Assembly: GCA_016926755.1 (NCBI GenBank)
Contig: JAFGNZ010000232.1
Coordinates: 1 to 36,565 of the forward strand
Source: Myxococcaceae bacterium
GTDB taxonomy: Bacteria; Myxococcota; Myxococcia; Myxococcales; Myxococcaceae
DNA: 36,565 nt
Reading direction: 5' to 3'
Shown: piece after piece, positions 10,907-35,451 of the stretch
Layout of the letters: each line of letters opens with the position of its first letter
How positions within the stretch are numbered: position 1 is the first letter of the stretch
The notes under the pieces: generated by a model
What the model saw: the letters and a program-made list of their open reading frames with translations, nothing else
What the model was told of the DNA's origin: nothing
Databases searched by the model: none
Translations under genes and position numbers: made by a program

Positions 10907-11071
10907 GGAAGTCGAGGAGCGGTGGGGGTTCCAGCCCACCGGGAAGACCCGACTTCGCAGCTATCTCAAAAAAACTTAAAAAACGAGAATCATTGGTTTT
11001 GCCTGGGAGGCACCCCTCGCCTTGGGCGTGTCGCCCCAGTAAATCAAAGGATTTACAGGGACCAGGCGGGA
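10907..11071. promoter_or_regulatory. AT-rich intergenic island with a perfect inverted repeat
   Basis: Between the SNF2 stop and the HEAT gene start. It contains an A-rich run on the + strand (10968-10985) that stands out from the GC-rich surroundings. It also has the perfect inverted repeat GTAAATC-AAAG-GATTTAC at 11039-11056 and a short GGGCG/CGCCC hairpin at about 11024-11036. The T-tract on the transcribed (-) strand is too far from either hairpin for a classical intrinsic terminator. The region probably ends the upstream transcript, starts the HEAT pair, or both. Confidence 0.4.
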
Positions 11072-20398: not shown

Positions 20399-21280
20399 AT
20401 GGCTGCCGACGAAACTCGGGTCACCAAGATCACCACGGTCAAGGCACCTAGCGCGACCAACCGGGATTGCTGCCTCGTCCAGATCCATGGCCCGGAGCTC
20501 GGGAAGAAGTACGTGCTCGATGATCAGGAGCACACCATCGGGCGCGACGAGAACAACCAGATCGTCGTGGAGCTGGACAACGTGTCCCGCCGGCACGCGA
20601 AGATCAGCACCAAGCAGGGCCGCATGTTCGTGGAGGATCTGAACTCCACCAACGGCACCTACCTCAATGATCAGGAGGTGCACCACGCCCAGCCGCTGCG
20701 CAGCGGAGATCTGATCAAGGTCGGCGGCTCGATCTTCAAGTTCCTGGATGGCGACAACATCGAGACGCAGTACCACGAGACGATCTACACGCTGACGATC
20801 GCGGACGGTCTCACCGGGGTGAACAACAAGCGCTACTTCCTCGAGTACCTCGAGCGGGAGATGGGGCGCTCGCACCGCTACCACCGGGCGCTGTCGCTGA
20901 TGATGTTCGACATCGACCACTTCAAGAAGATCAACGACGTGCACGGGCACCTGGCCGGGGACTACGTGCTGCGCGAGCTGGCCCAGTCCATCAAGCGGCT
21001 GGTGCGGCGCGAGCAGTGCTTCGCGCGCTACGGGGGCGAGGAGTTCGCGCTGGTGATGCCCGAGGACGGGCCGGAGAAGGCGCGGCTGTTCGCGGAGAAG
21101 ATCCGCAAGCTCATCGAGGAGAAGACGTTCCTCTTCGAGGAGAAGGAGATCCCCGTCACCATCTCCGTGGGCGTGGCGGAGATGGAGAACGACATGACGG
21201 AGCCCACCCAGTTCATCAAGGTGGCGGACGCCAACCTGTACCGGGCCAAGAAGGCAGGGCGCAATCAGGTGATCGGGTAG
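20399..21280 (+). CDS. FHA-GGDEF diguanylate cyclase
   Basis: 293 residues. An N-terminal tail (DETRVTKITT) leads into an FHA domain with the phosphothreonine-binding signature: TIGRD (46-50), VSRRHAKI (62-69), STNGTYLN (83-90). The GGDEF domain starts near 135 (ADGLTGVNNKRYF) and has an intact active-site GGEEF (212-216). It should therefore make cyclic-di-GMP. The product-inhibition I-site is degenerate: RREQ (203-206) replaces RxxD. Architecture implies that binding a phosphothreonine partner, supplied by a Ser/Thr kinase, controls c-di-GMP output. The N-terminal ETRVT could itself be a phosphorylated ligand for the FHA domain, as in GarA-type proteins; this is inference. A lipid- or cytosol-located hydrolase follows three bases downstream. 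Confidence 0.93.
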   Translation: MAADETRVTKITTVKAPSATNRDCCLVQIHGPELGKKYVLDDQEHTIGRDENNQIVVELDNVSRRHAKISTKQGRMFVEDLNSTNGTYLNDQEVHHAQPLRSGDLIKVGGSIFKFLDGDNIETQYHETIYTLTIADGLTGVNNKRYFLEYLEREMGRSHRYHRALSLMMFDIDHFKKINDVHGHLAGDYVLRELAQSIKRLVRREQCFARYGGEEFALVMPEDGPEKARLFAEKIRKLIEEKTFLFEEKEIPVTISVGVAEMENDMTEPTQFIKVADANLYRAKKAGRNQVIG

Positions 21281-21283
21281 GGC

Positions 21284-22042
21284 GTGGCCAAGGACTCGCC
21301 ATCGCGGCTGGCTCGGGCCCTGTTCATCCTCCTGGGGCTGGTGATGCTGGGCGCGGCGTGGGTCTGGCCCCATCTGCCCAGCCGTGACGGGGCGCGCGTC
21401 GAGGCAGGCCCGGAGCTGCTGGGCCTGCTGTCCGGTGGGTACGCCTATGCCTGGGTGCTGAAGACGCCGAACGGCGCGGCGCTCGTGGATGCCGGGGCGG
21501 ATCCCCAGGGCAAGGAGCTGCTGGCGGAGCTGGCCGCGCGCGGGGTGAGCCCGGAGCAGGTGCATACGATCCTGCTGACGCATGGCCATGTGGACCACTG
21601 GGCCGGCGCCCACCTGTTCCCCAATGCCCGCGTGGTGCTGGGGCCGGGGGAGGGCGCCCTGCTCCGGGGAGAGTATTCCCAGAAGAGCCTGGTGGGGCGG
21701 ATGACGCGCTCGCTGCCCCGCCCGCCCCTGCCCGCGAAGCTGGAGGAGGTGGCGGAGGGGGTGGAGCTGGAGGTGGATGGGGAGCCGATCCGCGCCATTC
21801 ACGTGCCAGGGCACACGCCCGGCAGCATGGTGTACCTGTGGCGGGATGTGCTCTTCACCGGGGACTTGCTGGTGCGCAGCAACCGGGGCCTGGACTCCTC
21901 ACCCTTCATCTTCTCCGAGAGCAACGAGGAGAGCCGCGCGTCCCTGCGGAAGCTGAGGGGCGTGGAGTTCTCCCGCATCGCGGACGGGCACGCCGGCCTC
22001 ACGGTGGATGCGCGGGCGCAGCTGGAGAAGCTGCTGGAGTAG
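21284..22042 (+). CDS. Metallo-beta-lactamase-fold hydrolase, membrane anchored
   Basis: 252 residues from a GTG three bases after the preceding stop. A hydrophobic helix (about 10-28) with a basic N-terminus is a signal anchor. The metal site is complete: His100, His102, Asp104, His105 (HGHVDH), His177 (VPGHTPGS), Asp194 (FTGD) and His236 (DGHAG). This is a glyoxalase-II/lactonase-like member of the superfamily and the substrate cannot be assigned. The hydrolase domain probably faces the periplasm. It is convergent with the next gene with only five bases between stop codons. The coupling to a diguanylate cyclase suggests, weakly, a role in the same regulation. Confidence 0.88.
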   Translation: MAKDSPSRLARALFILLGLVMLGAAWVWPHLPSRDGARVEAGPELLGLLSGGYAYAWVLKTPNGAALVDAGADPQGKELLAELAARGVSPEQVHTILLTHGHVDHWAGAHLFPNARVVLGPGEGALLRGEYSQKSLVGRMTRSLPRPPLPAKLEEVAEGVELEVDGEPIRAIHVPGHTPGSMVYLWRDVLFTGDLLVRSNRGLDSSPFIFSESNEESRASLRKLRGVEFSRIADGHAGLTVDARAQLEKLLE

Positions 22043-22047
22043 GGTGT

Positions 22048-23265
22048 TCAGGGCGAGGGCGTGTCGATGAGCAGCTCGCAGGGGCGCGCCGTGAGCCCCC
22101 ACGACTGCCGGGGCGCGAAGCCCATCCAGGGCTCGTGGCGATAGCCGAGCGTCACCTGGAAGAGCCCCCGGGGAGGGAGGAAGAGCACGACGTTGCCGCG
22201 CAGGAAGTCCTGGCTCTTCGCCATGGCGGCCTGCATCGCCTCGCGGGTCTGCCCCAGCACGAGGATCGCGGAGCGCCCCAGGTGCGGCCACCCGCCGAGG
22301 CCGTCCATCTCCTCGGGATCGAGCACGGCCGGGTGGACGCTCTCCGCCGGGAGCCGGGCGCGAGGGATCCAGCACGCCGTCAGCTCGTGCGTGAGCGTCG
22401 CGCCTGGCTTCACCTCGCGCGAGAAGGGCGCGAAGAAGCTCGCGGCGGGAGGCATCCCGGGCGGACCGTACCAGGTGCGGAGCTCCACGAGCCTCACGCG
22501 CTCCTGGGGAAAGCCGGCTGCCTCCACCGCCACCGTCCACCGCGGCCCTCCCCATCCACTACGAGCCTCGGGCTGCGCCAGGCCCGGGTAGAGCTCCGCG
22601 GGCTCATCCCCCTCGTTGCGGAAGTGGAGCTGGAGCTTCACCTCCGCGAGCTCATCCAGCGGGAGCCGTTGAGGCGTCACCTGGACTTCGAGCGCGAGGC
22701 GAGGCTGGCCCCGCTGCCGCAGGCCGAGGCGCCCGAGCACACCGGGCTCGGTCTTGTCCGCAGTGGGCGGGACGGCTTCGGCGCGGCCGGGCTCTTCGCT
22801 TGCACGTGCGATTGGCTCCGTGGCGGCGAGCACGGCCCCGACGCGCTCCGCCAGCCGAGCCCAGTCGGCGCGGGGGAGGGGGCGGGTGAGCAGGAGCGAG
22901 AGCCAGGCCTCGTCGAGGGGCTGCTGGTGCAGGGCCATGCGCAGGAGGCGGGGCGGATCGAAGCGCTCCTCGGGCTGCGCCCCCGGCGTGAGCAGCTCTT
23001 CGCCACCGATCAGGGAGCGAGGCACCGCGCGATAGGGGGCAATCGGCAGTCGGCCCTCCGCGACCAGCTCGGCGAACAGCTCTTCGAGGGGGCCGAGGGC
23101 CGCCGCGGCCCAGCGCTCATAGGGGAGACTGGCGTGCTCGAACCACCTGCGGGTGGCCTCCGAGGGATCCTCGCCCGGCAGCGACGCGACGGACACGCGC
23201 TTGCCGTCGAGGAGCTCGAGGGCATGGAACTCGGACACGCGGATGGCACCTGCTTGACCACTCAT
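22048..23265 (-). CDS. Protein of unknown function, last gene of the synthetase operon
   Basis: 405 residues from the ATG at 23265 (MSGQAGAIRV); the G-rich GGGGAG upstream is unusually close. Longer in-frame readings overlap the preceding gene and look like shadow sequence. About residues 1-130 are helical. About 175-405 look beta-rich (LEVQVTPQRLPL, VKLQLHFRNEGDEPAEL, TLTHELTACWIP), resembling a domain with two beta-sandwich halves. There is no signal peptide, no transmembrane helix and no catalytic motif I recognise. It lies 41 bases after the second asparagine-synthetase-like gene and probably belongs to the same transcript, so its substrate may be the product of that pathway; this is positional inference only. 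Confidence 0.75.
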   Translation of the reverse strand: MSGQAGAIRVSEFHALELLDGKRVSVASLPGEDPSEATRRWFEHASLPYERWAAAALGPLEELFAELVAEGRLPIAPYRAVPRSLIGGEELLTPGAQPEERFDPPRLLRMALHQQPLDEAWLSLLLTRPLPRADWARLAERVGAVLAATEPIARASEEPGRAEAVPPTADKTEPGVLGRLGLRQRGQPRLALEVQVTPQRLPLDELAEVKLQLHFRNEGDEPAELYPGLAQPEARSGWGGPRWTVAVEAAGFPQERVRLVELRTWYGPPGMPPAASFFAPFSREVKPGATLTHELTACWIPRARLPAESVHPAVLDPEEMDGLGGWPHLGRSAILVLGQTREAMQAAMAKSQDFLRGNVVLFLPPRGLFQVTLGYRHEPWMGFAPRQSWGLTARPCELLIDTPSP

Positions 23266-23306
23266 GCTCCCCAGCTTACCCGGAGGGACGGAGCCGTGGA
23301 TCCGCG

Positions 23307-25055
23307 CTACTTCGCGAGCACGGTGCGCAGCCATGCCTCTAGCGTGATGAGGAGCCAGATCTTCACGCCGTGCCGAGGGCGCAGGCCTCCCAGCTTCCCG
23401 GAGAGCAGCCGCTCCAGCCAGCCGCGATCGAACAGCTCCCACGGCTTCAGCCCATCCAGGAGCCGCGCTCGCGCCTCCGGCAGCAGCGGCCCCTGGAACC
23501 ACCCCTCCACCGGGACCAGCATCCCGCTCTTGGGCCGATCGATGATCTCTCGCGGGAGGACATCCTCCACCGCCCGCTTGAGCAGGTACTTCTCCACCGA
23601 GCCCTTCAGCTTGAGCTGCGGCGGCAGCTCGAACGCCAACTCCACCACCCGCCGGTCGAACAGCGGGGCGCGCGGGAGCACCCCGAACGGGGCGCTCACC
23701 TCGTCCACCTTGTGGAGGATGTGGTGCGAGCCCTTGAGGAACAGGTTGAGCGCCATCAGCTTGCCGACGAACGTCCTCCAACGCGGATCCGCGAAGAGGG
23801 GCGCGATCGTCGCCTCGAGCGGACGCTCCGCCACCGCCGCCTTCATCTTCGGAGAGAGCGCCTGCCCGAAGTCATCGAAGCACTTCTGGTGGGCCCGCAG
23901 GTAGCTCCGCTCTCGCGCCAGCAGCTCGTCGTCCACCACGGACACCTCGCCGTAGAGCTCCGCCAGCAGCATGGGCAGGTTCTTCGGCCCGCCAAAGCAG
24001 GGATCGCCCCCCTCGCCGTTGAGCACCACGCCCACCTCCGCCCCCGCCTCCCGGAAGAGCAGCGAGTTGGGCACGGTGAGCGGATCCCCGATCGGATCCG
24101 AGTGCAGCGCGATCGTCTCGTCCAGGTGGCGGAGGATGACTCGCGGCGCCAGCTCCACCACCCGGTGCGTGGTGCGGCAGTGCTCGGCCACCAGGGTGCT
24201 GAACGGCAGCTCGTTCCGGTACTCGGGGCCGAACGACACCGACCAGGTGATGACTTCCTTGTCATGGAGCCGCTTCGCCAGCGCGACCACCAGGCTGGAG
24301 TCGAGCCCGCCCGAGAGGAACACGCCCACCTTCTCGCCCGCCGGCAGCCTGCGGGAGACGGCCCCCTCCAGCTCCTGGCGCAGGCGCACCCGCAGCGCCT
24401 CCTCTCGCGCGGGGGAGAGGTCCGCGCTCGCGTCCACCTCCTCCGGCACGGACCAGAACTGCTCGTGGCGAGCCTTGCCCCCTGTCAGCGGCAGGTGCAC
24501 CACCTCGCCAGGGAGCACCTCGCGGACGCCCTCCACGAGCGTCTCATCCCCAGGCAGGTATGCGTAGCTGAGGTACGTCGCGACGCCGCGCAGGTTGAGC
24601 TGGCGCGGCACGAGCCCGCTGGCCAGCAGCGCGTGGATCGTCGACGCGAAGATCCAGCCGTGGGCGAGCTGCGCGTAGTAGAGCGTCCGCTCGCCGATGG
24701 CGTCTCGGGTGAGCCGGAGCTCGTCACCCACGCGACAGGCGAGGGCGAAGGCGCCATTCACGTCCGCGAGCCGGCCCGCCTCCATGAGCGCGCTCCACTG
24801 GGAGAGCGCTTCGATCCGCCGCCCATCCACCCAGCACGCGTCCCAGTCCGCGACGAGCGCCGTGCCTTGCGCCGGCTCCAGCAGCTGGCCGCTGGGACCC
24901 AGGGCCCGCAGGAGCGCCTCAGAGGCCTGCGGTGCCGCCCCCTGAGCGCTGGCCGCGAGCACCAGCCCTCCCATGCGCCCGGATGGGCGACGGCGGGTGA
25001 CCCCCGTCCCAAGTGGAGGCCCTTCCACCGCCTTGATCAGCAGAGGTGCCGCCAT
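23307..25055 (-). CDS. Asparagine-synthetase-like protein 2 without glutaminase residues
   Basis: 582 residues. The ATP-pyrophosphatase (synthetase) domain is intact in its key loops: SGGLDSS (248-254), FGPEYRNELPF and GEGGD (347-351). These adenylate a carboxylate for amide formation. The N-terminal domain is present in length but lacks the catalytic Cys at position 2 (starts MAAPLLIK) and the NGE glutamine-binding signature. An AAP region remains, so it resembles beta-lactam synthetase-type members that use an amine other than glutamine-derived ammonia. It starts two bases after the preceding stop. Possible substrates include an amino acid or a peptide. It is a divergent partner of synthetase 1. 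Confidence 0.9.
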   Translation of the reverse strand: MAAPLLIKAVEGPPLGTGVTRRRPSGRMGGLVLAASAQGAAPQASEALLRALGPSGQLLEPAQGTALVADWDACWVDGRRIEALSQWSALMEAGRLADVNGAFALACRVGDELRLTRDAIGERTLYYAQLAHGWIFASTIHALLASGLVPRQLNLRGVATYLSYAYLPGDETLVEGVREVLPGEVVHLPLTGGKARHEQFWSVPEEVDASADLSPAREEALRVRLRQELEGAVSRRLPAGEKVGVFLSGGLDSSLVVALAKRLHDKEVITWSVSFGPEYRNELPFSTLVAEHCRTTHRVVELAPRVILRHLDETIALHSDPIGDPLTVPNSLLFREAGAEVGVVLNGEGGDPCFGGPKNLPMLLAELYGEVSVVDDELLARERSYLRAHQKCFDDFGQALSPKMKAAVAERPLEATIAPLFADPRWRTFVGKLMALNLFLKGSHHILHKVDEVSAPFGVLPRAPLFDRRVVELAFELPPQLKLKGSVEKYLLKRAVEDVLPREIIDRPKSGMLVPVEGWFQGPLLPEARARLLDGLKPWELFDRGWLERLLSGKLGGLRPRHGVKIWLLITLEAWLRTVLAK

Positions 25056-25057
25056 GG

Positions 25058-26320
25058 CTACCCGAAGCTGTCCGCCCCGCCGTCCGAGGTATCGGCATCG
25101 GAGGAGAAGGAGTCGATGTCTACCTCGAAGTCACCGCTGGAGCTGGAGGCACCCGAGCCTCCATCTCCGCCGCCCTGCGCCGCGGCCTCATTCTTCTTCC
25201 TCTGGCGCTCCAGCTCCTCGGCCTCCCGCTGCCTGGCCAGGGCGGCCGTGGGCGCGAGCACCGCCGCCCCTGCGACGGCGGCTCCCGCGGCGGCGGCTCC
25301 CGGAGACAGCCGGCCCTGCGCGACCCGGCTCTCGCGCGGCGCGGCGGGAGCGCGCACGGCCCGGGTGAACTGGTTCATGGCGCGGAAGAGCCGCTTCAGC
25401 ACCTGCTCCGGGCGGATGACGGCCAGCTCGAGCGAGTGCTTCGAGAGCCAGCTGGCTTCCGCGGCGGAGAGGCCACCACCGGCGGGCACCTCCCGGTTCT
25501 GCCGCAGGAGCAACCGCTCGAACGGGCCGGCGTGAAGCGGGCGCAGCCCCACGTCCACGATCCGGATGCCCAGGCCCTTGAACCACTCGGGGCTGTTCGC
25601 CAGCAGGTGGGCCAGCCGGCACCCCTCGGGCGTGTTGTCATGGAGCACGAACACCTCGAGCCGTGGGTTGCGCCGCAGCATGCGCCGCACCGTCTCGAAG
25701 GCCTGCTGCGGGTAGCCCCCCACGGACAGGACCGCGCAGTTGTTCTCGAAGTGGAAGTTGTTGGCCAGCAGCAGATCCACCGTGCGCGCGCGATCGCAGA
25801 TGACCGCCCGATCGAAGGAGTAGTCGCCCAGGTCCGGCTCTGGCGCGCGCGCCGGCTTCGCCTCCGGGGGCCTGCGGGCGATCACGCCCTTGGGCTTGCC
25901 GTGGACCTGCCCCCAGCGATCCCACAGCTGCTCGAAGGCGCCGCGCGCGAACAGCTCGTTGCCTACGTTCTGGTACGTGTACCAGAGCAGCCCAAAGACC
26001 GCGGGCACGTGGAGCAGAAGCGCCAGGGGCGCCGCGGTGCCAATCGCGATCCCCGCTCCGAAGCCGACGAAGAGGACCACGAAGACGGCGGCCCCCTTGG
26101 TGGAGCTCTTCTTCCTGCGGCAGAGCTCGTAATAGAGGTGCTCCACCCCCCACTTCACCTGCCCGTTGGCCGAGACGGTGTCGATCGCCCGCTGGACGGC
26201 CATGTCGGTGAAGGGATCATTCTCGCGGGGCTCGAAGGCGAACCTGCCTCCGCAGTGCGGGCACTTCTTCCCGGTCCGCTCGGAGTACTTCGAGTCGTGC
26301 TGGCAGCGGATGCAGATCAT
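25058..26320 (-). CDS. Zinc-ribbon membrane protein with possible TOPRIM-like domain and acidic Ser-rich tail
   Basis: 420 residues from the ATG at 26320, which overlaps the previous stop as ATGA. A zinc ribbon opens the protein: Cys3, Cys6, Cys20, Cys23 (CIRCQ and CPHCG). Two hydrophobic segments follow (about 78-100 and 102-118). The domain at about 165-310 alternates strands and helices. AVICDRARTVDLLL, VLSVGGYPQ and VFVLHDNTPEGCRLAHL recall a TOPRIM-type fold, but the acidic DxD is altered, so this is tentative. Linker residues 320-375 are Ala/Arg-rich, and the tail is Ser/Asp/Gly-rich (SSSSGDFEVDIDSFSSDAD). No known family was recognised as a whole. Tight coupling between the two synthetase genes indicates a pathway role. 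Confidence 0.82.
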   Translation of the reverse strand: MICIRCQHDSKYSERTGKKCPHCGGRFAFEPRENDPFTDMAVQRAIDTVSANGQVKWGVEHLYYELCRRKKSSTKGAAVFVVLFVGFGAGIAIGTAAPLALLLHVPAVFGLLWYTYQNVGNELFARGAFEQLWDRWGQVHGKPKGVIARRPPEAKPARAPEPDLGDYSFDRAVICDRARTVDLLLANNFHFENNCAVLSVGGYPQQAFETVRRMLRRNPRLEVFVLHDNTPEGCRLAHLLANSPEWFKGLGIRIVDVGLRPLHAGPFERLLLRQNREVPAGGGLSAAEASWLSKHSLELAVIRPEQVLKRLFRAMNQFTRAVRAPAAPRESRVAQGRLSPGAAAAGAAVAGAAVLAPTAALARQREAEELERQRKKNEAAAQGGGDGGSGASSSSGDFEVDIDSFSSDADTSDGGADSFG

Positions 26321-28071
26321 GCCGCCCCTCCCGGCCGCCGCCCGCGGCCATCCACGAACACCCGCATCCATGCCTCCAGCATGGCCAGGGCCCACAGCTT
26401 CTCGCCGATCCGCCGGCGCCGCGTCTCGTCGGGCTGATCCTGGCCCTGCCGTAGGCGGGAGACGTAGTCCTCCTGGAACATCCCTCGCCGCCGCACCGCC
26501 GCGGGCCCGAGCAGCTCCTCCATGAGCGGCGCGAGCGGGCCCAGCACCCAGTCCGTGGCGGGCACGCTCATCCCGAACTTCCGCCGCCAGACGATGTCGT
26601 CCGGCAGCTTGTTCTGCAGCGCCAGCTTGAGGACGTACTTCTCACAGGCCCCGTGCAGCTTGAGCTGCGGCGGCAGGGCGAAGGACTCCGTGGCCAGGGC
26701 GCGGTCGAACAGCGGCACCCGCATGTCCAGCGCCCACGCGTTGGCGATCCGCTCCGCGCGCGGGAGGATGTTCTGCGAGCCCTTGAGCGCGATGTCCGCC
26801 AGGCGGACCCGGTTCAGGAAGTGGGGAATGTCCGGGCTGCCCAGGTAGGGCCGCAGGAGCGCGCGCCGCTGGCCGGGGCCGCCCACCTGCGCGCGGAACT
26901 CCGGCGCGTAGAGCGCGTCCTCCAGCCCGTAGAAGCGGTGGTAGGAGCGCAGGTAGAGCTCCTCCGGCTCCTGCGGAGAGTCCTCGTAGAGGCCGCCGTA
27001 CACCTCCGCGGCCACCATGGGCTTCGAGGTCCACCCTCCGAAGAGCTGATCACCGCCCTCGCCGTTGAAGACGGCCGAGTAGCCCGCCTGCCGCGCCGCC
27101 CGGCCCAGGAGGAAGTGCGGCCCCGTCACCGCATCTCCGAAGGGCAGGTCCAGCTTCCAGACGAGCTCCATCAGCGCCTGGCCGATGTCCTCGCCCGAGG
27201 CCTTCACCCAGGTGAGCGGGAACTCCAGCAGCCTGGCGACCTGCTCGGCCTGCTCGCGCTCCACGCTGTGCTCGCCGAAGTCGAGGCTGAAGGCGCGCAC
27301 CTTGACGCCCGCCTCCTTGAGCCACACGGCCACGCCGGAGGAGTCGATGCCACCCGAGAGGTAGAGCGCCACCTCGGGCTCTCCGTTGAGCCGCCGCTCC
27401 ACCGCCTGCCGGCAGAGGGCGCGCACGCGCCGCACCGCCGTGGCCTGGTCCTCGAGCGCGGGATCGAGCTGCTCGCGCAGGGTGAAGTACGGCGTGGAGC
27501 TGAGCTTGCCGTCCTCGAAGACGCCCAGGTGTCCGGGCAGCAGGCGCTTCACCCCGCGCAGGGGCACGTCCTCGCCCGGGACGAAGGAGAAGGTGAGGTA
27601 CTTGTGGATGGCGGCCGGATCCAGGGCGGGCTCGAAGCCCGGGATGGCCAGCAGCTGCTTCAGCTCGCTGGCGAAGTACAGCACGCCTTGGTGGACCGTG
27701 TAGTAGAGCGAGCGGACCCCGAAGGGATCTCGCAGCAGCGTGAGCCGCCGCCGCTCGCCATCCCACCAGGCGCAGGCGAAGGCGCCGTCGAGCTCATCCA
27801 GCGCGGCGCCGCCGGCGGACAGCCGCGAGAGGAGGGCCTCGGCGGGAGAGGGGGCGGGGGGCGCGAGCGTCCCGGCGCAGGAGAGCAGGTGAGGGCCCTG
27901 GCGGAGGATGGAGCCGGACTTGCCCGGGCGGCCGCCCCACCAGCGGTAGCCGAGCCCCACCCCCGGGGCCTGCGCGGTGTCGATGCGGTCCCCGCGGTAG
28001 TCGATCGCCTGGAGCATCGCGGTGAGCACTTCGGGGGAGGCCTCCCCCACGTAGCCGCAGAGCCCGCTCAT
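26317..28071 (-). CDS. Asparagine-synthetase-like protein 1 with altered glutaminase N-terminus
   Basis: 584 residues from the ATG at 28071, which overlaps the upstream stop as ATGA. The synthetase domain has SGGIDSS (239-245), SLDFGEH, GEGGDQLFGG and a VRRKFGM-like C-terminal segment (WRRKFGMSVP). The glutaminase domain is recognisable (RDPFGVRSLYY, ASELKQLLAI) but begins MSGLCGYVGE. Aligned with the usual MCGIAGYVGE, Ser replaces Cys2 and Cys replaces Ala5. The NGE glutamine site reads AGT (66-68). It may be inactive as a glutaminase, use Ser as nucleophile, or need N-terminal trimming to expose Cys5. It should activate a carboxylate with ATP for amide formation. The substrate is unknown. 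Confidence 0.92.
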   Translation of the reverse strand: MSGLCGYVGEASPEVLTAMLQAIDYRGDRIDTAQAPGVGLGYRWWGGRPGKSGSILRQGPHLLSCAGTLAPPAPSPAEALLSRLSAGGAALDELDGAFACAWWDGERRRLTLLRDPFGVRSLYYTVHQGVLYFASELKQLLAIPGFEPALDPAAIHKYLTFSFVPGEDVPLRGVKRLLPGHLGVFEDGKLSSTPYFTLREQLDPALEDQATAVRRVRALCRQAVERRLNGEPEVALYLSGGIDSSGVAVWLKEAGVKVRAFSLDFGEHSVEREQAEQVARLLEFPLTWVKASGEDIGQALMELVWKLDLPFGDAVTGPHFLLGRAARQAGYSAVFNGEGGDQLFGGWTSKPMVAAEVYGGLYEDSPQEPEELYLRSYHRFYGLEDALYAPEFRAQVGGPGQRRALLRPYLGSPDIPHFLNRVRLADIALKGSQNILPRAERIANAWALDMRVPLFDRALATESFALPPQLKLHGACEKYVLKLALQNKLPDDIVWRRKFGMSVPATDWVLGPLAPLMEELLGPAAVRRRGMFQEDYVSRLRQGQDQPDETRRRRIGEKLWALAMLEAWMRVFVDGRGRRPGGAA

Positions 28072-29255
28072 GCATCCACCTGGGTGGAGAGGAGGTCCGC
28101 GAAGGTCTCCCTTCGCGTGGTGAGGAGCGCCTGGCCCTGGTCCATCACCACCTCGGCGGGGCGGGGACGATTCAGGAAGTGGCTCGACATGGCGTAACCG
28201 TAGGCGCCGACGTCTCGCAAGGCCAGGAGATCTCCTGGCGCGAGCCGCGGGAGCTGGCAGTTGCGCGCGAGGAAGTCCCGCGAGTGCGTGGTGTTGCCGC
28301 AGACATCCGTGGGGATCTCCAGCGGGGCGCCGCGGGGCGCCACTGCCTCGACGCGGTGATGGGGGTAGTAGACGCTCTCCACCACGACGTTGCCCACCGT
28401 GGTGTCCACCCCGACGTAGCGCCGCCCGCCGCGCTCCTTCACCGAGATGACCTTGACGAGCAGCGAGCCCGCCTCGGCCACCAGCACCCGCCCGGGCTCC
28501 ACCACCAGGCGGATCCGGCGGCCCCGGCGCGCCGAGAGCGCTTCCATCCGGCCTGCCACCTCGCGGCCCAGCGTGGGGAGATCCAGCGGCTCCTGGCCCG
28601 GCCGGTAGGGCACCCCGAAGCCGCCGCCCGCGTCGAGCTCCTCCAGATCCGGCAGGAGCTCCGAGGCGGCCACCATCCGATCGAAGCACGCGAGGAAGCG
28701 CGCCAGGGAGCGGTTGTTGGTGCCCGCGTACATGTGGAGGCCGATGAGGCGGACCCCGGCCGCGCGGGCGATCTCGAGGGCCTCGGGGAGCTCGGCCGGG
28801 TCCACGCCGATGCGGCTGGCGCGGGTGGGATCGTCCACCAGGAGGCGCAGCCCCACGGCCCCACCCGGGCCGCGCGCGGCGAAGTCCCGGAGCTGATCGA
28901 CCGAGTCGAGGTTGAGGCGGATGCGGTGGCCGAGGAGGAAGTCCAGATCGTCCGCGTTGAGGTTCGTCCCGCTATAGAGGATCCGATCCGGGGGCACGCC
29001 CGCGGAGAGCGCGGCGAAGGCGTCTCCCGGGGTGTTGGCGTGGATCCCCGCCCCCAGCGCGTGCAGCAGGCGCACCAGGTGCCGGTTCTTGTTGCAGACG
29101 ATGGCGTAGTGGAAGTCGGCGGGCGAGTAGGGGAAGGCCGCGGTGAAGTCCCGGTACGCGGCCCGCACGCGCTCGGCGTCGTAGACGTAGAGCGGGCTTC
29201 CATGGTGCTCCACCAGTCGCGCGGCGTGGTCCGCCATTGGCTCTCGGGCGCTCAT
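28068..29255 (-). CDS. Fold-III ornithine/diaminopimelate-decarboxylase-like protein lacking the usual PLP lysine
   Basis: 395 residues. GGAG lies eight bases before the ATG. The alanine-racemase-type barrel and C-terminal beta domain are clear: YAIVCNKN (50-57), GLHMYAGTNN (about 170), DAGGGFGVPY (about 208-217), EPGRVLVAEAG (about 252-262) and DVGAYGYAMSSHF near the end. In ODC and LysA the first motif is YAVK[AC]N, whose Lys binds PLP; here Val53 stands in that place and the nearest Lys is Lys56. The C-terminal Cys motif reads DVCGNTTHS rather than the usual C-E/T-x-x-D. Several phosphate-binding glycines remain. It may be an amino-acid decarboxylase with a shifted lysine, or a catalytically dead relative. 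The last four bases form an ATGA overlap with synthetase 1. Confidence 0.9.
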   Translation of the reverse strand: MSAREPMADHAARLVEHHGSPLYVYDAERVRAAYRDFTAAFPYSPADFHYAIVCNKNRHLVRLLHALGAGIHANTPGDAFAALSAGVPPDRILYSGTNLNADDLDFLLGHRIRLNLDSVDQLRDFAARGPGGAVGLRLLVDDPTRASRIGVDPAELPEALEIARAAGVRLIGLHMYAGTNNRSLARFLACFDRMVAASELLPDLEELDAGGGFGVPYRPGQEPLDLPTLGREVAGRMEALSARRGRRIRLVVEPGRVLVAEAGSLLVKVISVKERGGRRYVGVDTTVGNVVVESVYYPHHRVEAVAPRGAPLEIPTDVCGNTTHSRDFLARNCQLPRLAPGDLLALRDVGAYGYAMSSHFLNRPRPAEVVMDQGQALLTTRRETFADLLSTQVDA

Positions 29256-29346
29256 CTCAGGATCTCCGATCTCGGCGTAGCGGCGGAAGGTATCGGCCCA
29301 GGTAGTGGCCGTGCAAGGCGCTGCCTCCCGCGCGGAGGGGCGGGGC

Positions 29347-30495
29347 TCAGCGCCCGAGGAGCCTCGCCAGCACCTCCGCCCCGCGGAGCACCACCTCCGG
29401 TGGAGAACAGGTGAAGCACAGCCGCACGTGGTGCGGAAAGGGCCCGAAGCTGGGCCCGGGGGCCAGCAGCAGGCGGTGCTCCACGCAGCGCTCCAGGAAG
29501 CCCGGCAGCCCTCGCTCGTCCAGGTGCCCGGCCACGTCCAGGAAGAGGAAGGTGCTGCCTTGCGGTGGCGGCACGCCCAGCCTCGCGGCCACCTTGCCGC
29601 CCGTGTCCGAGTACTGCGCCGCGGCCGCGGCCGCCCAGCGTGGCCCCGGCCCCTGGAGCGCCCGCATCCCCGCGAGCTGCGCGGCGGTGGGCGCGCTGTA
29701 GAAGGAGTGGGTGCTCACCTTGCGCATCTGCGCCACCGCGTCGGTGGGGCCCACCACCCAGCCGCAGCGGTTGCCGGCCATGCCGTACGCCTTGCTGAAG
29801 CTCCAGGCGGACAGCGTGCGCTCGGGCGCCAGCGCGCGCGCGTAGACGTGCTCTCCCGCGTAGACGTAGTCCTCGTACACCTCGTCCGAGAGCAGCCACA
29901 GCCCCTCTCGCCGCGCCAGCTCCGCCAGGGCCTCCACCCACGCGCGCGGCAGCACCCGGCCGGTGGGGTTGTTCGGGGTGTTGAGGTACAGCGCCGCCGT
30001 GCGCTCGGTGAGCCGCGAGCGCACCGCCTCCACCAGCTCCTCGGCGCTGGCCAGCTCCAGGAAGGGCACTGGCACCGGCACCCCGTGGAAGGCCCTCACG
30101 ATGCCGGCGATGAGCGGCCAGTAGGGCGCCAGCACCAGCACCTCCTCGCCGGGCGCCACCAGCGCGCCCACCATCGCCCCCAGCCCCCCGGTGGCCCCCG
30201 TGGTGACGAGCACGTTGGCGCGCTCGGTGGCCACTCCCGTGCGGGCCCGGACGTACTCGACGAGGGTGTCCAGCAGCGCGGGCAGGCCCTCCACCGGGGT
30301 GTAGCGATGCAGGCCCGGGTGCTGGGCCACTCGCAGATCCTCCATGCGGCAGCCCTCGGGCGGCTCCATCCACGTGTCCCCCACGTGCAGCGGATACACC
30401 TCGCCCTCCTTGCGGGAGAGCTGATCCGCGAGCGCGCTGTACACCGAGCCCGACATGGCGGTGACGGAGGGAGCGTAGGTGGGGTGGCGAGGCAT
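29347..30495 (-). CDS. PLP-dependent class I/II aminotransferase
   Basis: 382 residues; GGAG six bases before the ATG. Fold-type I signatures are complete: YTPVEGLPALL (65-75), the Asn-Pro motif NTPNNPTG (172-179), DEVYEDY (204-210), the PLP lysine Lys235 in SFSKAYGMAGNRCGW and a C-terminal Arg in HHVRLCFT. It should transfer an amino group between an amino acid and a 2-oxo acid. The specificity (aspartate, aromatic, alanine or other) cannot be read. It lies 42 bases after the kinase stop and 91 bases before the decarboxylase-like gene, all in the same direction, so it probably belongs to the same pathway, for instance by preparing an amino-acid precursor. Confidence 0.92.
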   Translation of the reverse strand: MPRHPTYAPSVTAMSGSVYSALADQLSRKEGEVYPLHVGDTWMEPPEGCRMEDLRVAQHPGLHRYTPVEGLPALLDTLVEYVRARTGVATERANVLVTTGATGGLGAMVGALVAPGEEVLVLAPYWPLIAGIVRAFHGVPVPVPFLELASAEELVEAVRSRLTERTAALYLNTPNNPTGRVLPRAWVEALAELARREGLWLLSDEVYEDYVYAGEHVYARALAPERTLSAWSFSKAYGMAGNRCGWVVGPTDAVAQMRKVSTHSFYSAPTAAQLAGMRALQGPGPRWAAAAAAQYSDTGGKVAARLGVPPPQGSTFLFLDVAGHLDERGLPGFLERCVEHRLLLAPGPSFGPFPHHVRLCFTCSPPEVVLRGAEVLARLLGR

Positions 30496-30537
30496 GGAGT
30501 CTCCTGAAGGAGGGGTTGTCGACGAGCGCCCCGGGTG

Positions 30538-32448
30538 TCAGCGGGCGCGGTCGTACTCCGCGAGCATCTGCCTCACCTTGGGCGCCATCTTGTGATCCGG
30601 AGCCAGCTCCAGGAACTTGCGGTAGTGCACCACGGCGGTGTCGAACCTGCCCATCCCCGCCTGGGCAGCGCCGAGGATCATGTGACAGTCGGCGTTGCGC
30701 GGGGTCAGCTTGACGCACCACGAGGCCTGCTGGCTCGCTTCGGCGTACTGCCTGGCGCGCAGCAGCGCTGCCGCGTTGGCGAAGGCCGCCGGCGCATCGC
30801 CTCTCGAGGAGAGGCCCAGGGCCCGAGCAGGATCCGAGGGGAGAGAGGGTGGGGTGAGGCGCCCGCCCAAGGCCTCTTTGACGGCGGGGGCTTGCGGGTG
30901 ATCCGGAGCGAGGCTCAGGAAGGCGCGATACCGCTCGGCTGCTTTCGATTTCTCTCCCAGCTCCGTGTGCGCATCGCCGGCGAGCTTGTGACACTCCGCG
31001 TTCTTCGGCTCGAACTCGAGGCACAGCAGGGCGGAGAGCACTGCCTGTGGGTACTGCTTCGCGGCGAGGAGCCTGGAGGCCTCTTCCCGCGCGGCCCCGG
31101 CGCGCTCCTCCTTCGAGGGCTCCGGCCGGACATTCTCGGGAGGAGAGGGTGGGGGAGGAGCAGGCTCGGGGATGCTGACGCGTGAAGGTGGCGTGGTGCC
31201 GATGGTCGCCTGGGCCAGCGGCTTGAGCGGAGAAGGCTCCTGAGCGGCCTGCAGCTGAGGCTCCCCCATGGCGACGAAGACGAGGACAAGGGCGAAGACC
31301 GTGAGCGCGGCCCCTGCTCCGAGGCCCGTGTACAGCGCCTTGCGCGTGGACAGCGCGGACTCCGCGGGGACAGTGTCCGGAGGTGGCTGTGGCGCGCGCG
31401 GCATGGGCTCAGCCGGCGGAGTAGCGGAGCGGCTGGGCGCCGTCGCACCTTGCCATCGGGACAGCTGCTCCTGGAAAGAGCGAGGAATCTGGACCTGACG
31501 CCCTTCGGCGATGAGGTCCTCCCGGAACAGCGCCTGAGCGAAGTGGGAGAGGGACATGCCCGAGAAGCGAGGCTCGGCGGAGTAGAGGAAGCCGGCCAGC
31601 GCATCCCCCAGCTCATGGCAGGAGCCGGTACGCTCCTCGCGGTTGACCGCCAGCGCCTGCATGACGATGTCTTCCAGCTCCACGGGCAGAGCAGGGTTGA
31701 GCTCTCGGGGGCGCGGGAAGTCGCCTTTGATGAGCCGATGCACCGCCACGTACTGGGGGCCCTGGACGGGGAGCTGGCCGCACAGCATCTCGTAGAGGAC
31801 GATGCCGGTGGCCCACACATCCGTGCGCGCATCCACCTCATGGCCTCGCGCCTGCTCCGGGGAGAAGAACAGGTACTTGCCCTTCACCACGCCGGGCTCG
31901 GTGTTGAAGCCGCGCAGCTCCCGGGCCTTGGCGATGCCGAAGTCGACGATCTTGACCTGGCCCTCGTAGCTGACGAGCACGTTGTCCGGAGAGATGTCGC
32001 GGTGGACGATGCCCAGGGGCTTGCCCTGCTCGTCCTTGCGGGTGTGGGCGTAGTGCAGGCCGCGGCACATCTCGATGCCGATGAAGGCGGCGAGCGGGGC
32101 GGGGATGCAGGTGGGGCCCGACTTGAGGGCGCGCTTGATGATGCGGTCCAGCGGCTGGCCATCCACGTACTCCATGGCCAGGAAGTACTCCCCATCCACG
32201 CGGCCGAAGTCATAGACCTGGGCGATGGTGCCGTGGGAGAGCGTGGCGGAGATGCGCGCCTCGCTGATGAACATGGTGGTGAAGGCCTGATCGTTGGCGT
32301 ACTCGGGGAGCACCTTCTTGATGAGCACGGGCTTGGTGACGCCGGCCTCGCCCACCAGGCGAGCGCGGTAGGTCTCTGCCATGCCGCCGCGGCCGAGCCG
32401 GGACACCAGCTCATAGCGACCGAATCGGGCTCCAGCGTGTAGCGCCAT
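30538..32448 (-). CDS. Hanks-type Ser/Thr protein kinase with TPR periplasmic domain
   Basis: 636 residues. Kinase motifs: Gly-rich loop LGRGGMAETY (18-27), Lys44 (VLIKK), catalytic Asp151 in HRDISPDN, DFG (169-171) and SPEQA (196-200). HRDISPDN in place of HRDLKPEN is a common variant in myxobacterial kinases. After a Pro/Ser-rich linker comes one transmembrane helix (about 371-394), a second Pro-rich linker and a C-terminal region of TPR-like repeats (about 455-636), with motifs such as AAKQYPQAVLSALLCLEFEP and GRFDTAVVHYRKFLELAPDH. The TPR should lie in the periplasm and sense or bind a partner. The kinase faces the cytoplasm. It precedes the aminotransferase by 42 bases and may regulate the operon. 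Confidence 0.95.
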   Translation of the reverse strand: MALHAGARFGRYELVSRLGRGGMAETYRARLVGEAGVTKPVLIKKVLPEYANDQAFTTMFISEARISATLSHGTIAQVYDFGRVDGEYFLAMEYVDGQPLDRIIKRALKSGPTCIPAPLAAFIGIEMCRGLHYAHTRKDEQGKPLGIVHRDISPDNVLVSYEGQVKIVDFGIAKARELRGFNTEPGVVKGKYLFFSPEQARGHEVDARTDVWATGIVLYEMLCGQLPVQGPQYVAVHRLIKGDFPRPRELNPALPVELEDIVMQALAVNREERTGSCHELGDALAGFLYSAEPRFSGMSLSHFAQALFREDLIAEGRQVQIPRSFQEQLSRWQGATAPSRSATPPAEPMPRAPQPPPDTVPAESALSTRKALYTGLGAGAALTVFALVLVFVAMGEPQLQAAQEPSPLKPLAQATIGTTPPSRVSIPEPAPPPPSPPENVRPEPSKEERAGAAREEASRLLAAKQYPQAVLSALLCLEFEPKNAECHKLAGDAHTELGEKSKAAERYRAFLSLAPDHPQAPAVKEALGGRLTPPSLPSDPARALGLSSRGDAPAAFANAAALLRARQYAEASQQASWCVKLTPRNADCHMILGAAQAGMGRFDTAVVHYRKFLELAPDHKMAPKVRQMLAEYDRAR

Positions 32449-32534: not shown

Positions 32535-34337
32535 TCACTGGACGCCGTCGAAGGTGGCCACGCTGTCGTTGGTGAGCCCCGCCGCGTTCGCCTCGTCCGT
32601 GTCCACGTGCATGTCCAGGGAGAACTGCTCGTGCACCCGGACGATCACGTCCCCGAAGATCGTCTCGCGCTCGCCCTCCACTCGGACGCGGATCTGGTTC
32701 TTGTCCTGCACGCCGAGGCGCCGCGCATCGTCCGGGTGCATGTGCACGTGGCGGTGCGCCAGGATGACGCCGTGGTCGATGGCCACCGTGCCCTTCGGGC
32801 CTCGCAGCGTCAGGCCCGGCGTGTTCTCCAGCTTGCCCGACTCGCGCAGCGGTGGGTTCACCCCCAGGGTGAACGCGTCCGTGCGGGAGACTTCGACCTG
32901 GGTCTCCTTGCGCAGCGGGTTGATGATCGCCACCCGCTCGATCTCGCCCTTGGGCCCGATCAGATCGACGGTCTCCCGGCAGACGTACTGCCCGGGCTGG
33001 GACACCTGGCGGCGCTCGGTGAGCTCGTAGCCCTGGCCGAAGAGCGCGTCGCAGTGCTCCCGGGTCAGGTGCACGTGGCGCACGCTGACCCCCACGGGGA
33101 TGGCGTGGCCCGTGACGCGCTGCCGCGCCGCCGTGGGGCCCGCGGTTACCCGGACCACCTCGCGGGCGATCATCCGCTCCTCGTCGGTGGCGACGACCAG
33201 CACGCGGGTGGGGGCGCGCGGGGAGGCGATGTCCACCACGCCGCCCGAGCCGCGCGCGTCGCAGTGCTGGTTCCTCTCCGAGTCGATCACCACGCCCATG
33301 TAGACGAGCGCGTCGCAGACGGCCGTGCGCACCTTCACGCTGTTCTCGCCGATGCCGCCGGTGAAGACGATGGCGTCCGCGCCGCCCAGCACCGCCGCGT
33401 ACGCGCCGATGTACTTGCGGATGCGGTGGACGAACACCTCGATCGCCAGCCGGGCGCGGTCGTTTCCGCCCGCCGCGGCCTGGTCGATGTCGCGGAAGTC
33501 GGCCGAGACGCCCGAGATGCCGAACAGGCCGGACTTCCGGTTCAGCGCCTCGTCGATGGCGTCCGGCGTCATCCCCTGCCGCCCGAGCACGATGGCGAGC
33601 GCCGGGTCGACGTCTCCCGAGCGGGTGCCCATCACCAGCCCCTCGAGCGGCGTCATCCCCATGGAGGTATCCACCGAGCGGCCGCCGTCGATGGCGCACA
33701 CGGAGGCGCCGCCGCCCAGGTGGCAGGTGATGAGCTTCAGCCGGGAGATGTCGGTCTTGAGGAACTCGGAGGCGCTGGCCGCCATGAACTGGTGGCTCGG
33801 GCCGTGGAAGCCGTACCGGCGCACGCCGCGCTCGAGGTAGAGCTCGTACGGCACCGCGTAGATATAGGAGTGCGGCGGCAGCTCGCCGTGGAACGCGGTG
33901 TCAAAGACGGCGACGTGGGTGGCGTTGGGCAGCGCGGCCTGGGCCGCCTCGATGCCGGCGAGGTTCGCCGGGTTGTGGAGGGGCGCGAACTGCGCGCACC
34001 GGGTGATGATGTCCTTCACCTCGGGGGTGATGACGCAGGGGCGCACCAGCTTCTCGCCGCCATGGACGACCCGGTGGCCTACCGCGCGCAGCTCGGAGAT
34101 GTCCTTGAGCGAGCCGCCCGGGCTGGTGAGCTGCGCGAGCACCGCGTCGAGCCCCGCGCGCAGGGTGGGGGCCGGGAACTCCGCCTGCGAGCGCGTTGAG
34201 CCGACCCGCCACTTGTGGACCGCATGGGGCGAGCCGACCCGCTCGACGACGCCACCCGAGAGGATCTCCTCGGTGTCCATTTCGTAGAGCTGGTACTTGA
34301 TGGAGGTGCTGCCGACGTTGATGACGAGGACTTTCAT
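32535..34337 (-). CDS. Acetate kinase-PduL phosphotransacylase fusion
   Basis: 600 residues from the ATG at 34337 (MKVLVINVGS), the usual AckA start; a GTG nine bases upstream is rejected. Residues 1-400 are acetate kinase: Asn7, Arg89 (GHRVVHGG), His121 (PLHNP), Asp146 (FDTAFH), His178 (GFHGPSH), Arg239 (GTRSGDVDP) and the TDEERMIAR end. Residues 413-590 are PduL-type phosphate acyltransferase: IPVGVSVRHVHLT with His421 and His423, RRQVSQPGQY, VSRTDAFTLGVNPP and AHRHVHMHPDDA (His528-His534), the metal-binding histidines, then DTDEANAAG. Together they would convert acetyl-CoA and phosphate to acetyl phosphate and then to acetate and ATP, or the reverse. There is no microcompartment signal or shell gene. 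It ends 86 bases before the kinase gene. Confidence 0.95.
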   Translation of the reverse strand: MKVLVINVGSTSIKYQLYEMDTEEILSGGVVERVGSPHAVHKWRVGSTRSQAEFPAPTLRAGLDAVLAQLTSPGGSLKDISELRAVGHRVVHGGEKLVRPCVITPEVKDIITRCAQFAPLHNPANLAGIEAAQAALPNATHVAVFDTAFHGELPPHSYIYAVPYELYLERGVRRYGFHGPSHQFMAASASEFLKTDISRLKLITCHLGGGASVCAIDGGRSVDTSMGMTPLEGLVMGTRSGDVDPALAIVLGRQGMTPDAIDEALNRKSGLFGISGVSADFRDIDQAAAGGNDRARLAIEVFVHRIRKYIGAYAAVLGGADAIVFTGGIGENSVKVRTAVCDALVYMGVVIDSERNQHCDARGSGGVVDIASPRAPTRVLVVATDEERMIAREVVRVTAGPTAARQRVTGHAIPVGVSVRHVHLTREHCDALFGQGYELTERRQVSQPGQYVCRETVDLIGPKGEIERVAIINPLRKETQVEVSRTDAFTLGVNPPLRESGKLENTPGLTLRGPKGTVAIDHGVILAHRHVHMHPDDARRLGVQDKNQIRVRVEGERETIFGDVIVRVHEQFSLDMHVDTDEANAAGLTNDSVATFDGVQ

Positions 34338-34422
34338 GGCCCGCACATAGTGCCGGGCCCGGCCTCGGGCGTCGAGCGCCCGGACCTGTCGGACAGCAAG
34401 ACAGGCCCTTGGACTTCAGGGC

Positions 34423-35451
34423 TCAGGTGTCCTCGCGCAGCTCCGCGAGCCGCCCCTTGGTGCCCGGCAGATCCGTGGGCGGCATCTTCGTGAAGAGGTA
34501 CTGCACCGTGTCGTGCAGCGTCTCGTGCGGATCCCTCGCGTGGAAGCCCAGCTCCTGCTCCGCCTTCGAGGCGTCCAGGTAGAAGTAGTGCTCGCCCACG
34601 TCCACCTCCTGCGGATCCAGCGCCGGCTTCGTGCCCCGCAGCTTCGCCCACCGCTCCAGCAGCTTCGCCCCCACCACGTTCACCTTCGAGGGCAGGCGCA
34701 GGCGCGGCGCCGCCACCCCCGTCAGCCGCTCCAGCCGCTCGAAGAAGTCCGCCATGGACATGTTCACGCCCATCAGGTGGCGGCCGTACAGCTCCCCCCG
34801 CGTCAGCGCGCTCACGAACGCGTCCGCCGCGTCCCGCGCGTCCACGAAGGACATCCCGCCCCCCGGCATCGCCGGCAGCTCCCGGTTGAGGAACTTCACC
34901 ACCGTCCACGTCGAGGAGAGCCGGTCATCCCCAGGTCCCATCAGCAGGCTCGGGTTGAGCACCACCAGCGGGATGGAGTGCTTGCGGCAGTACTCCAACG
35001 TCAGCTTCTCCTCGTAGATCTTCGAGAGGTAGTACGGCCAGCGCCCCACCAGCGTGATGGGGTAGTCGTCCTCCTCGCGGCCGAGCCGCTCCTCCTTGGA
35101 CACCGCGATCGTCCCCGAGGTGGACGCGAGGATGAAGCGCTTCACCCCCGCCTCGCGCACGTCCCGCACCAGCTCGCGCGTGGCGTCCACGTGCAGCTCG
35201 TACATCCGCCGCGCGTCCTTGTCCTGGAAGGAGACGAGCCCCGCCAGGTGGTAGACGGCCTCCACCCCCTCCAGCGCGCGCCGCACCGCCTCGCGATCCT
35301 TCAGATCGCCCTGGACGAACTCCGCCCGCGCCAGCCCCGGCGCCGAGGGCCGCGTCCGGCCGATCAGCCGCACCTCATGGCCGGCCTCGAGCAGCTTCGG
35401 CACCAGGTGGATGCCCAGGAAACCGGTGCCTCCCGTCACGAGCAGCTTCAC
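34423..35451 (-). CDS. NAD(P)-dependent extended SDR, epimerase/dihydroflavonol-reductase-like
   Basis: 342 residues from a GTG that overlaps the upstream stop as GTGA. The Rossmann motif is TGGTGFLG (6-13), followed by GDLKDREAVRRAL and HLAGLVS (68-74). The catalytic pair is Tyr140 and Lys144 in YYLSK, with Ser/Thr at ASTSGT (109-114). VLNPSLLMGPGD is typical of extended SDRs in the dihydroflavonol-reductase/hopanoid-associated epimerase group. It may reduce a carbonyl or epimerise a sugar or lipid group. The overlap with an ACP-acyltransferase gene suggests that the substrate is an acyl or lipid intermediate, but this is contextual inference. No signal peptide is seen. Confidence 0.9.
   Translation of the reverse strand: MKLLVTGGTGFLGIHLVPKLLEAGHEVRLIGRTRPSAPGLARAEFVQGDLKDREAVRRALEGVEAVYHLAGLVSFQDKDARRMYELHVDATRELVRDVREAGVKRFILASTSGTIAVSKEERLGREEDDYPITLVGRWPYYLSKIYEEKLTLEYCRKHSIPLVVLNPSLLMGPGDDRLSSTWTVVKFLNRELPAMPGGGMSFVDARDAADAFVSALTRGELYGRHLMGVNMSMADFFERLERLTGVAAPRLRLPSKVNVVGAKLLERWAKLRGTKPALDPQEVDVGEHYFYLDASKAEQELGFHARDPHETLHDTVQYLFTKMPPTDLPGTKGRLAELREDT

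Follow-up and report, generated by a model that had tools for sequence, protein, structure and literature searches.

A four-gene cassette of myxobacteria and cyanobacteria with two glutaminase-deficient AsnB-type ligases, a lysine-less LysA-like protein and a Phe-Gly-tailed protein with a modelled Toprim-like domain

Ligases with the fold of asparagine synthetase (AsnB) can act on the C-terminal carboxylate of ribosomal peptides: one report describes how the asparagine synthetase-like enzyme PesC converts a peptide C-terminal carboxylate via adenylation, with glutamine or ammonia usable, and how TsrC and ScdTA amidate peptide C-termini (PMC13060819). Amines can also be joined to the tail of a carrier protein, as in the case of LysW, a zinc-binding carrier that, according to a further report, has an amine linked by a dedicated ligase to the C-terminal Glu of its conserved EDWGE tail (PMC10433800). 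Here we describe a cassette of four genes encoding a LysA-like protein, two AsnB-type ligases (AsnB1 and AsnB2) and a protein designated Z, located in a 36,565-nucleotide contig of a Myxococcaceae bacterium (JAFGNZ010000232.1; the whole contig is referred to below as the window). The same four genes recur as a unit in another myxobacterium and in cyanobacteria, and we tentatively propose that they make an amide on the tail of Z itself.

The cassette ligases keep the ATP-site motifs of AsnB-type enzymes, and action on a C-terminal carboxylate is putative for them; they differ from PesC, TsrC and ScdTA in having no glutaminase Cys, in having a membrane protein rather than a secreted peptide as candidate substrate, and in having a LysA-like partner. 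Z resembles LysW and ArgW in its zinc-binding motif and its conserved acidic-aromatic-Gly C-terminal tail, but LysW is tiny and soluble with a Glu attachment site in its EDWGE tail, whereas Z is ~420 aa long with membrane and Toprim parts and a DSFG tail, and is accompanied by AsnB-type ligases. No family match joins Z to LysW, and its readable tails end in FG, not EDWGE. LysX, the ligase of LysW, is an ATP-grasp enzyme.

A four-gene unit within a seven-gene run

Window gene models place seven co-directional genes on the minus strand at 22048-32448, as a preliminary description of this locus had stated, with two ATGA overlaps joining three of them (LysA-like/AsnB1 at 28068-28071 and AsnB1/Z at 26317-26320) and remaining intergenic gaps of 42, 91, 2 and 41 bases. 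Its reading of this run as one seven-gene operon did not survive comparison with other genomes. The conserved unit is LysA-like/AsnB1/Z/AsnB2, only four of the seven genes; neither the second myxobacterial copy nor the cyanobacterial copies include the kinase, the aminotransferase or the last gene (gene 7), generic kinase hits aside. The features of the unit, in window coordinates, are:

28068-29255, minus strand: LysA-like protein with the fold of diaminopimelate decarboxylase (DAPDC), without the pyridoxal phosphate (PLP) lysine; core gene L, 395 aa (Orn_Arg_deC_N, 2.6e-29)
29097-29099, minus strand: Val53 codon at the PLP-lysine position of the LysA-like gene (alignment with solved DAPDCs)
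26317-28071, minus strand: AsnB1, AsnB-type ligase without the glutaminase Cys; core gene 1, 584 aa (Asn_synthase, 9.8e-61)
25058-26320, minus strand: Z, with a zinc ribbon, long helices (membrane), a Toprim-like domain and a C-terminal -DSFG; core gene, 420 aa (no Pfam family)
25058-25171, minus strand: disordered acidic C-terminal tail of Z, residues 384-420, ending DADTSDGGADSFG (predicted local distance difference test score, pLDDT, <50)
23307-25055, minus strand: AsnB2, AsnB-type ligase without the glutaminase Cys; core gene 2, 582 aa (Asn_synthase, 1e-66)

In the second myxobacterium (G083, locus L006) the LysA-like protein, AsnB1, Z and AsnB2 are encoded contiguously and are 87, 88, 64 and 80% identical to the window proteins, respectively, and no kinase, aminotransferase or gene 7 was found beside them. 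A Sericytochromatia metagenome-assembled genome (L005) has Z, AsnB2 and a LysA-like protein 60% identical to the window copy, and a Gloeothece plasmid (L007) carries AsnB1, LysA-like and Z together with AsnB2 in the opposite direction. A profile search with Z returned 38 of 386 Cyanobacteriota genomes, about a tenth of those sampled, and 2 of 195 Myxococcota genomes; a reduced form lies on a plasmid of Streptomyces NBC_01237. The cassette is horizontally spread. When 41 loci were scored by tblastn, all four core genes were found together in 28 and at least three in 37, counts that are not independent sampling because the loci were chosen by Z and the other three genes were scored only near Z hits. 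A ~206-aa protein (here 5), likely with a membrane segment and with weak Pfam hits only, is also carried by 21 of the 28 complete loci and recurs upstream of AsnB1 in 26 clustered loci (for example L007:7419-8042, plus strand). Writing L for LysA-like and 1 and 2 for the ligases, the remaining loci read 5L1Z (five), Z2 (three), LZ2 (two) and LZ, L1Z and 51Z2 (one each), where a missing partner means absence nearby, some contigs or stretches ending early. In the three minimal loci Z is thus accompanied by no core gene but AsnB2.

The cassette is almost certainly a conserved functional unit. Pairwise distances between the core proteins correlate with r of 0.91-0.97 (0.83-0.95 within cyanobacteria alone), and the ratio of nonsynonymous to synonymous substitution rates (dN/dS) between the two myxobacterial copies is 0.17-0.48, indicating purifying selection, with a value of 0.21 for the LysA-like gene. 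Z is the fastest-evolving of the four proteins between these copies, and its FG end is nonetheless unchanged. No further enzyme is conserved with the cassette in the loci scored or among the clustered neighbours, and no transporter family stood out among the latter. Conservation of the whole run across genomes, which had been put forward as a check, is seen for the four core genes and not for the other three. Besides the four-gene unit, the preliminary description had not included the loss of the PLP lysine in the LysA-like protein, the Toprim domain and FG end of Z, or the older neighbourhood of the aminotransferase (see below).

Some individual loci depart from the common pattern in other ways. 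L051 (G236, 69% GC, in the Cyanobacteriota sample) has the gene order of the window, and both of its ligases group with those of the myxobacteria in the tree. At L078:11102-12958 (minus strand) a single open reading frame resembles AsnB1 in its N-terminal part and the LysA-like protein in its C-terminal part, apparently through an in-frame deletion, and L082 and L083 are broken cassettes with fragments of several core genes.

Sequence and fold of the core proteins

Three sequence features are fixed in the cassette proteins compared: a replaced PLP lysine, a missing glutaminase Cys and a Phe-Gly C-terminus. The first concerns the LysA-like protein, for which the earlier assignment to a decarboxylase-like family holds as far as family and fold are concerned. 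Its nearest solved relatives by both sequence and fold are DAPDCs (~30% identity), the similarity extending over the whole length of this fold-III decarboxylase, and its AlphaFold2 model (pLDDT 84.5) matches DAPDC 4xg1 with a Z-score of 38.8 and 2.7 A over 371 residues; with TIGR01048 it scores 263.5 bits, under the 297.9 cut-off. The phosphate-site motifs are retained, GGGFG and EPGR residues being invariant and GAYGYAMSS mostly so in a 21-row alignment. The catalytic residues of LysA are not. The PLP-lysine motif YAxKxN reads YAIVCN in the window protein, Val53 aligning with the Lys of YAVKAN in solved DAPDCs, and the position is Val in 34 of 34 LysA-like rows compared (L005, L006 and L007 included), L003 being the only lysine-bearing control from the same genome in that comparison. 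In the alignment with solved DAPDCs the stacking His of HxHxGS is replaced by Tyr176 and the catalytic Cys of C-E-x-x-D by Thr323, and V53, Y176, T323, S325, R326 and D327 are invariant in the 21 rows. Because these replacement residues are themselves conserved, they suggest an altered function under selection rather than decay. Every sequence compared has lost both the PLP lysine and the catalytic Cys to other residues, which makes decarboxylase activity, and with it the label, doubtful.

The second feature, a broken glutaminase in both AsnB-like proteins, had been noted before and extends to all their relatives examined. AsnB1 begins MSGLCG, AsnB2 has no MCG start, and this start is missing from 64 of 64 near-full-length AsnB1 and AsnB2 proteins. 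The ATP-site motifs, in contrast to the glutaminase Cys, are kept (SGGIDSS, NGEGGDQLFGG and RRKFGMSVP in AsnB1; SGGLDSS, NGEGGDPCFGG and RPKSGMLVP in AsnB2). By motif scans rather than alignments, the pyrophosphate loop SGGxDSS is found in 63 of the 64 proteins (one not read), RxKxGM likewise in 63, and GE(G/H)GD in 32/32 AsnB2 and 28/32 AsnB1 proteins. Both ligases are probably catalytic, because these motifs are conserved. With TIGR01536 (cut-off 267.1 bits) AsnB1 scores 239.1 and AsnB2 207.1, both under. In a tree narrower than the phylogeny that the preliminary description had called for, AsnB1 and AsnB2 are two separate clades (100/100 for each), both distinct from seven AsnB-type references, a small set that includes one NAGGN amidotransferase and is without lasso cyclases, beta-lactam synthetase (BLS) or CPS. 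What had been suggested as an amide-forming or amino-acid-modifying pathway accordingly keeps its amide-forming part, on the strength of the retained ATP site, the lost Cys and the position outside these references, and loses its seven-gene extent.

Lasso peptide cyclases, BLS and CarA also have the AsnB fold without a working glutaminase site, as is known for these families, and so resemble AsnB1 and AsnB2. However, the cassette ligases score only 110.3 and 129 bits with the lasso cyclase family NF033535 (cut-off 525 bits), and no lasso leader-peptidase partner was recognised among the window genes examined. Solved relatives of AsnB1 include BLS and CarA, with weak sequence similarity.

The third feature is found at the end of Z. 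The zinc ribbon cysteines C3, C6, C20 and C23 are invariant in the alignment, and the model (pLDDT 78) has long helices followed by a Toprim-like domain at residues 154-332 and an unstructured acidic tail; Z is predicted to be membrane-bound. The domain resembles that of Topo VI-A (1d3y; Z-score 11.3, 3.7 A over 156 residues), Spo11 and JetD (7til; Z-score 8.9), and the first ten structure matches are Topo VI-A, Spo11, JetD and one nuclease. Z differs from these proteins in its predicted membrane location, in its FG tail and in apparently not keeping the Toprim acidic residues outside Streptomyces: in an alignment read by eye, the cyanobacterial and myxobacterial sequences have D or Q in place of the Glu, D or N at the first Asp and S, T or N at the second, whereas two Streptomyces Z-like paralogues keep DAD at the Asp-x-Asp. 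Since these metal-ligand positions appear to vary, cleavage by the domain is unlikely. FG closes every Z protein whose C-terminus could be read, 42 of 42 (DSFG 15, ESFG 14, QSFG 5, others 8); these are 41 long proteins plus a 106-aa protein of L059, and the count leaves out fragments from the decayed copies L081, L082 and L083 and the Streptomyces Z-like proteins, which are without FG. Ser precedes FG in 34 of the 42 and Asp or Glu stands before that in 34, with positions further back variable. Among 809 other open reading frames of the loci, three end in FG, and one of these is the Streptomyces tail protein: in NBC_01237 a separate 179-aa protein adjacent to the Z-like proteins and beside an AsnB2 homologue ends WSDDDFG. 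The L059 protein (10815-11135, plus strand) combines the zinc ribbon with an ESFG end and is without the Toprim domain. A search of the window genome for the pattern D-x-F-G-stop gave no other acidic-tailed open reading frame, tails beginning with E or Q not being covered by it. Z has no match to a Pfam, NCBIfam, PADLOC or PHROG family apart from one sub-threshold NCBIfam lectin hit of 15.7 bits.

Assignments of the cassette to exosortase-A loci and to phage defence were considered and rejected. Exosortase-A polysaccharide loci, to which the locus had previously been likened, also combine one fold-III decarboxylase homologue with AsnB-type proteins, but the scores are far below the cut-offs for TIGR03099 (130.4 against 478.45 bits), TIGR03108 (212-219 against 816.9 bits) and TIGR03104, and the conserved neighbours include no recurrent exosortase or glycosyltransferase. 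For phage defence, the sole PADLOC hit is AsnB1 to QueC at 28.2 bits, reflecting a shared ATP-binding fold, and there is no PHROG for Z and no viral contig encoding Z; this is weak evidence, as the libraries hold described systems only.

Possible chemistry on the Z tail

The proposal that the cassette makes an amide on the tail of Z is a tentative one, and we infer its chemistry, that is, the tail as substrate, the reacting carboxylate, the amine and the role of the LysA-like protein, as follows. Z would sit in the membrane and present a flexible acidic tail with a free Phe-Gly carboxylate. AsnB2, with AsnB1 where present, would adenylate a carboxylate, most likely that of the terminal glycine or else that of an Asp or Glu of the tail, and an amine would attack the adenylated group. 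Because the glutaminase Cys is lost, this amine would not be ammonia that the ligase itself frees from glutamine. The LysA-like protein may bind the amine and hand it over, or may modify it without an internal aldimine; its role as amine holder is the weakest link of the mechanism. Z might then serve as a carrier, or the modification might switch it as a sensor. Modification of the tail itself seems to us plausible but somewhat doubtful. The fullest version, in which a lysine-less decarboxylase relative presents an amine, the ligases attach it to the terminal glycine of Z as a membrane-anchored Toprim protein resembling Topo VI-A, and the tail is a carrier or switch, is possible but on balance unlikely. 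If the tail is the substrate, the C-terminal carboxylate chemistry of AsnB-type enzymes would reach beyond secreted peptides to a protein resident in the membrane, and a fold-III decarboxylase relative would have gained a role without its lysine.

Several observations weigh against modification of the tail. Its fixed C-terminus is equally explicable as a docking motif, and its acidic residues offer Asp and Glu side chains as well as the terminal carboxylate. A pure carrier role leaves the Toprim domain unexplained. Four loci (one decayed) have no LysA-like gene near Z and six have no AsnB1, so neither is essential to a core of Z and AsnB2; in the Streptomyces cluster a single AsnB homologue was seen, and a LysA-like gene was not.

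The same enzymes might instead serve a small-molecule pathway. AsnB1 and AsnB2 would then form amides or lactams, as BLS and CarA do, in an amino-acid metabolite that is free to diffuse; the LysA-like protein would bind the substrate or shape it, and Z would be a scaffold or regulator in the membrane. A missing glutaminase Cys in AsnB-type enzymes is typical of such pathways, BLS and CarA do appear, if weakly, among the solved relatives of AsnB1, the presence of ligases from two clades suggests a different reaction for each, and the LysA fold handles small amino acids. We nevertheless consider such a pathway unlikely: a metabolite route would have to make do with no other conserved enzyme and no prominent transporter family, its minimal version would consist of a ligase and Z alone, and the invariant FG tail would go unexplained.

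Alternatively, AsnB2 or AsnB1 could bind Phe-Gly and not modify it, thereby assembling a membrane complex that works through the Topo VI-A/JetD-like Toprim domain, for instance in nucleic-acid sensing or defence. C-terminal peptides that stay fixed can be docking motifs, the domain resembles those of Topo VI-A, of Spo11 and of JetD, a subunit of the Wadjet nuclease, and the sporadic distribution fits a defence-like or mobile trait. The apparently varying metal-ligand positions, the lack of a PADLOC or PHROG family for Z and the conserved ATP site of ligases that are probably catalytic speak against this explanation, which we consider rather unlikely.

Finally, ordinary amino-acid metabolism by drifted duplicate asparagine synthetases and a DAPDC, which Pfam superfamily membership and the nearest solved structure of the LysA-like protein might suggest, is extremely improbable, standard asparagine or lysine synthesis being rejected on the PLP lysine and glutaminase Cys missing everywhere examined, the scores under the TIGR01536 and TIGR01048 cut-offs and the separation of the ligase clades from the AsnB sequences tested, while the replacement residues are invariant rather than drifting and the window genome holds three separate AsnB genes over the TIGR01536 cut-off.

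Automatic labels such as asparagine synthetase and decarboxylase mislead here, because both ligases and the decarboxylase relative are without the residue on which their labels depend. Each protein alone belongs to a known superfamily or fold, and the cassette is apparently undescribed as a system: we judge it new because no Pfam, NCBIfam, PADLOC or PHROG family names Z or gene 7, no description was found in open-licence full-text literature, and the proteins fell outside the families in which membership was tested.

Insertion site and neighbouring genes

The three genes of the run outside the cassette are:

30538-32448, minus strand: Ser/Thr protein kinase with tetratricopeptide repeats, not conserved with the cassette (Pfam Pkinase, 1.6e-35)
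29347-30495, minus strand: class I/II aminotransferase, a local neighbour outside the cassette (Pfam Aminotran_1_2, 2.8e-46)
22048-23265, minus strand: gene 7, downstream, a 405-aa protein of unknown function (no family match)

Orthologues of the aminotransferase with 81-85% identity are present in G081, G082 and G121, in which there is no LysA-like match at the threshold used and no Z match. G081 and G082 belong to the genus of the window organism, and both carry the aminotransferase without the cassette. In G082, 16 bp separate the end of the aminotransferase alignment (8718) from the start of the side with the metallo-hydrolase that borders the cassette in the window (8735); the corresponding stretch of the window measures ~7.3 kb (22044-29345) and contains the cassette and gene 7. 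The cassette is inserted beside the aminotransferase at a site that is empty in a genus-mate, and the aminotransferase is part of an older local neighbourhood. The G081 and G082 stretches (L119, L120) have no kinase homologue close to the aminotransferase, and some cassette loci show generic kinase hits of 54-69 bits; control of the pathway by the kinase, as once suggested, is not borne out, the kinase being conserved neither with the cassette nor next to the aminotransferase in these genomes. Gene 7 has no match in 19 relatives, being found only in the window genome, and none in Pfam, NCBIfam, PADLOC or PHROG; it is probably outside the cassette core. Given the near-empty site in G082, the lack of a kinase by the aminotransferase and the unmatched gene 7, the seven-gene run is therefore a composite.

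Convergent with the cassette are an FHA-GGDEF diguanylate cyclase (20399-21280, plus strand) and then a metallo-beta-lactamase-fold hydrolase (21284-22042, plus strand). Upstream of the kinase, 32535-34346 (minus strand) encodes an acetate kinase fused to a PduL-type phosphate propanoyltransferase (PF00871, 2.3e-140; PF06130, 1.3e-77), and 35448-36563 (minus strand) encodes an acyltransferase fused to an acyl-carrier domain.

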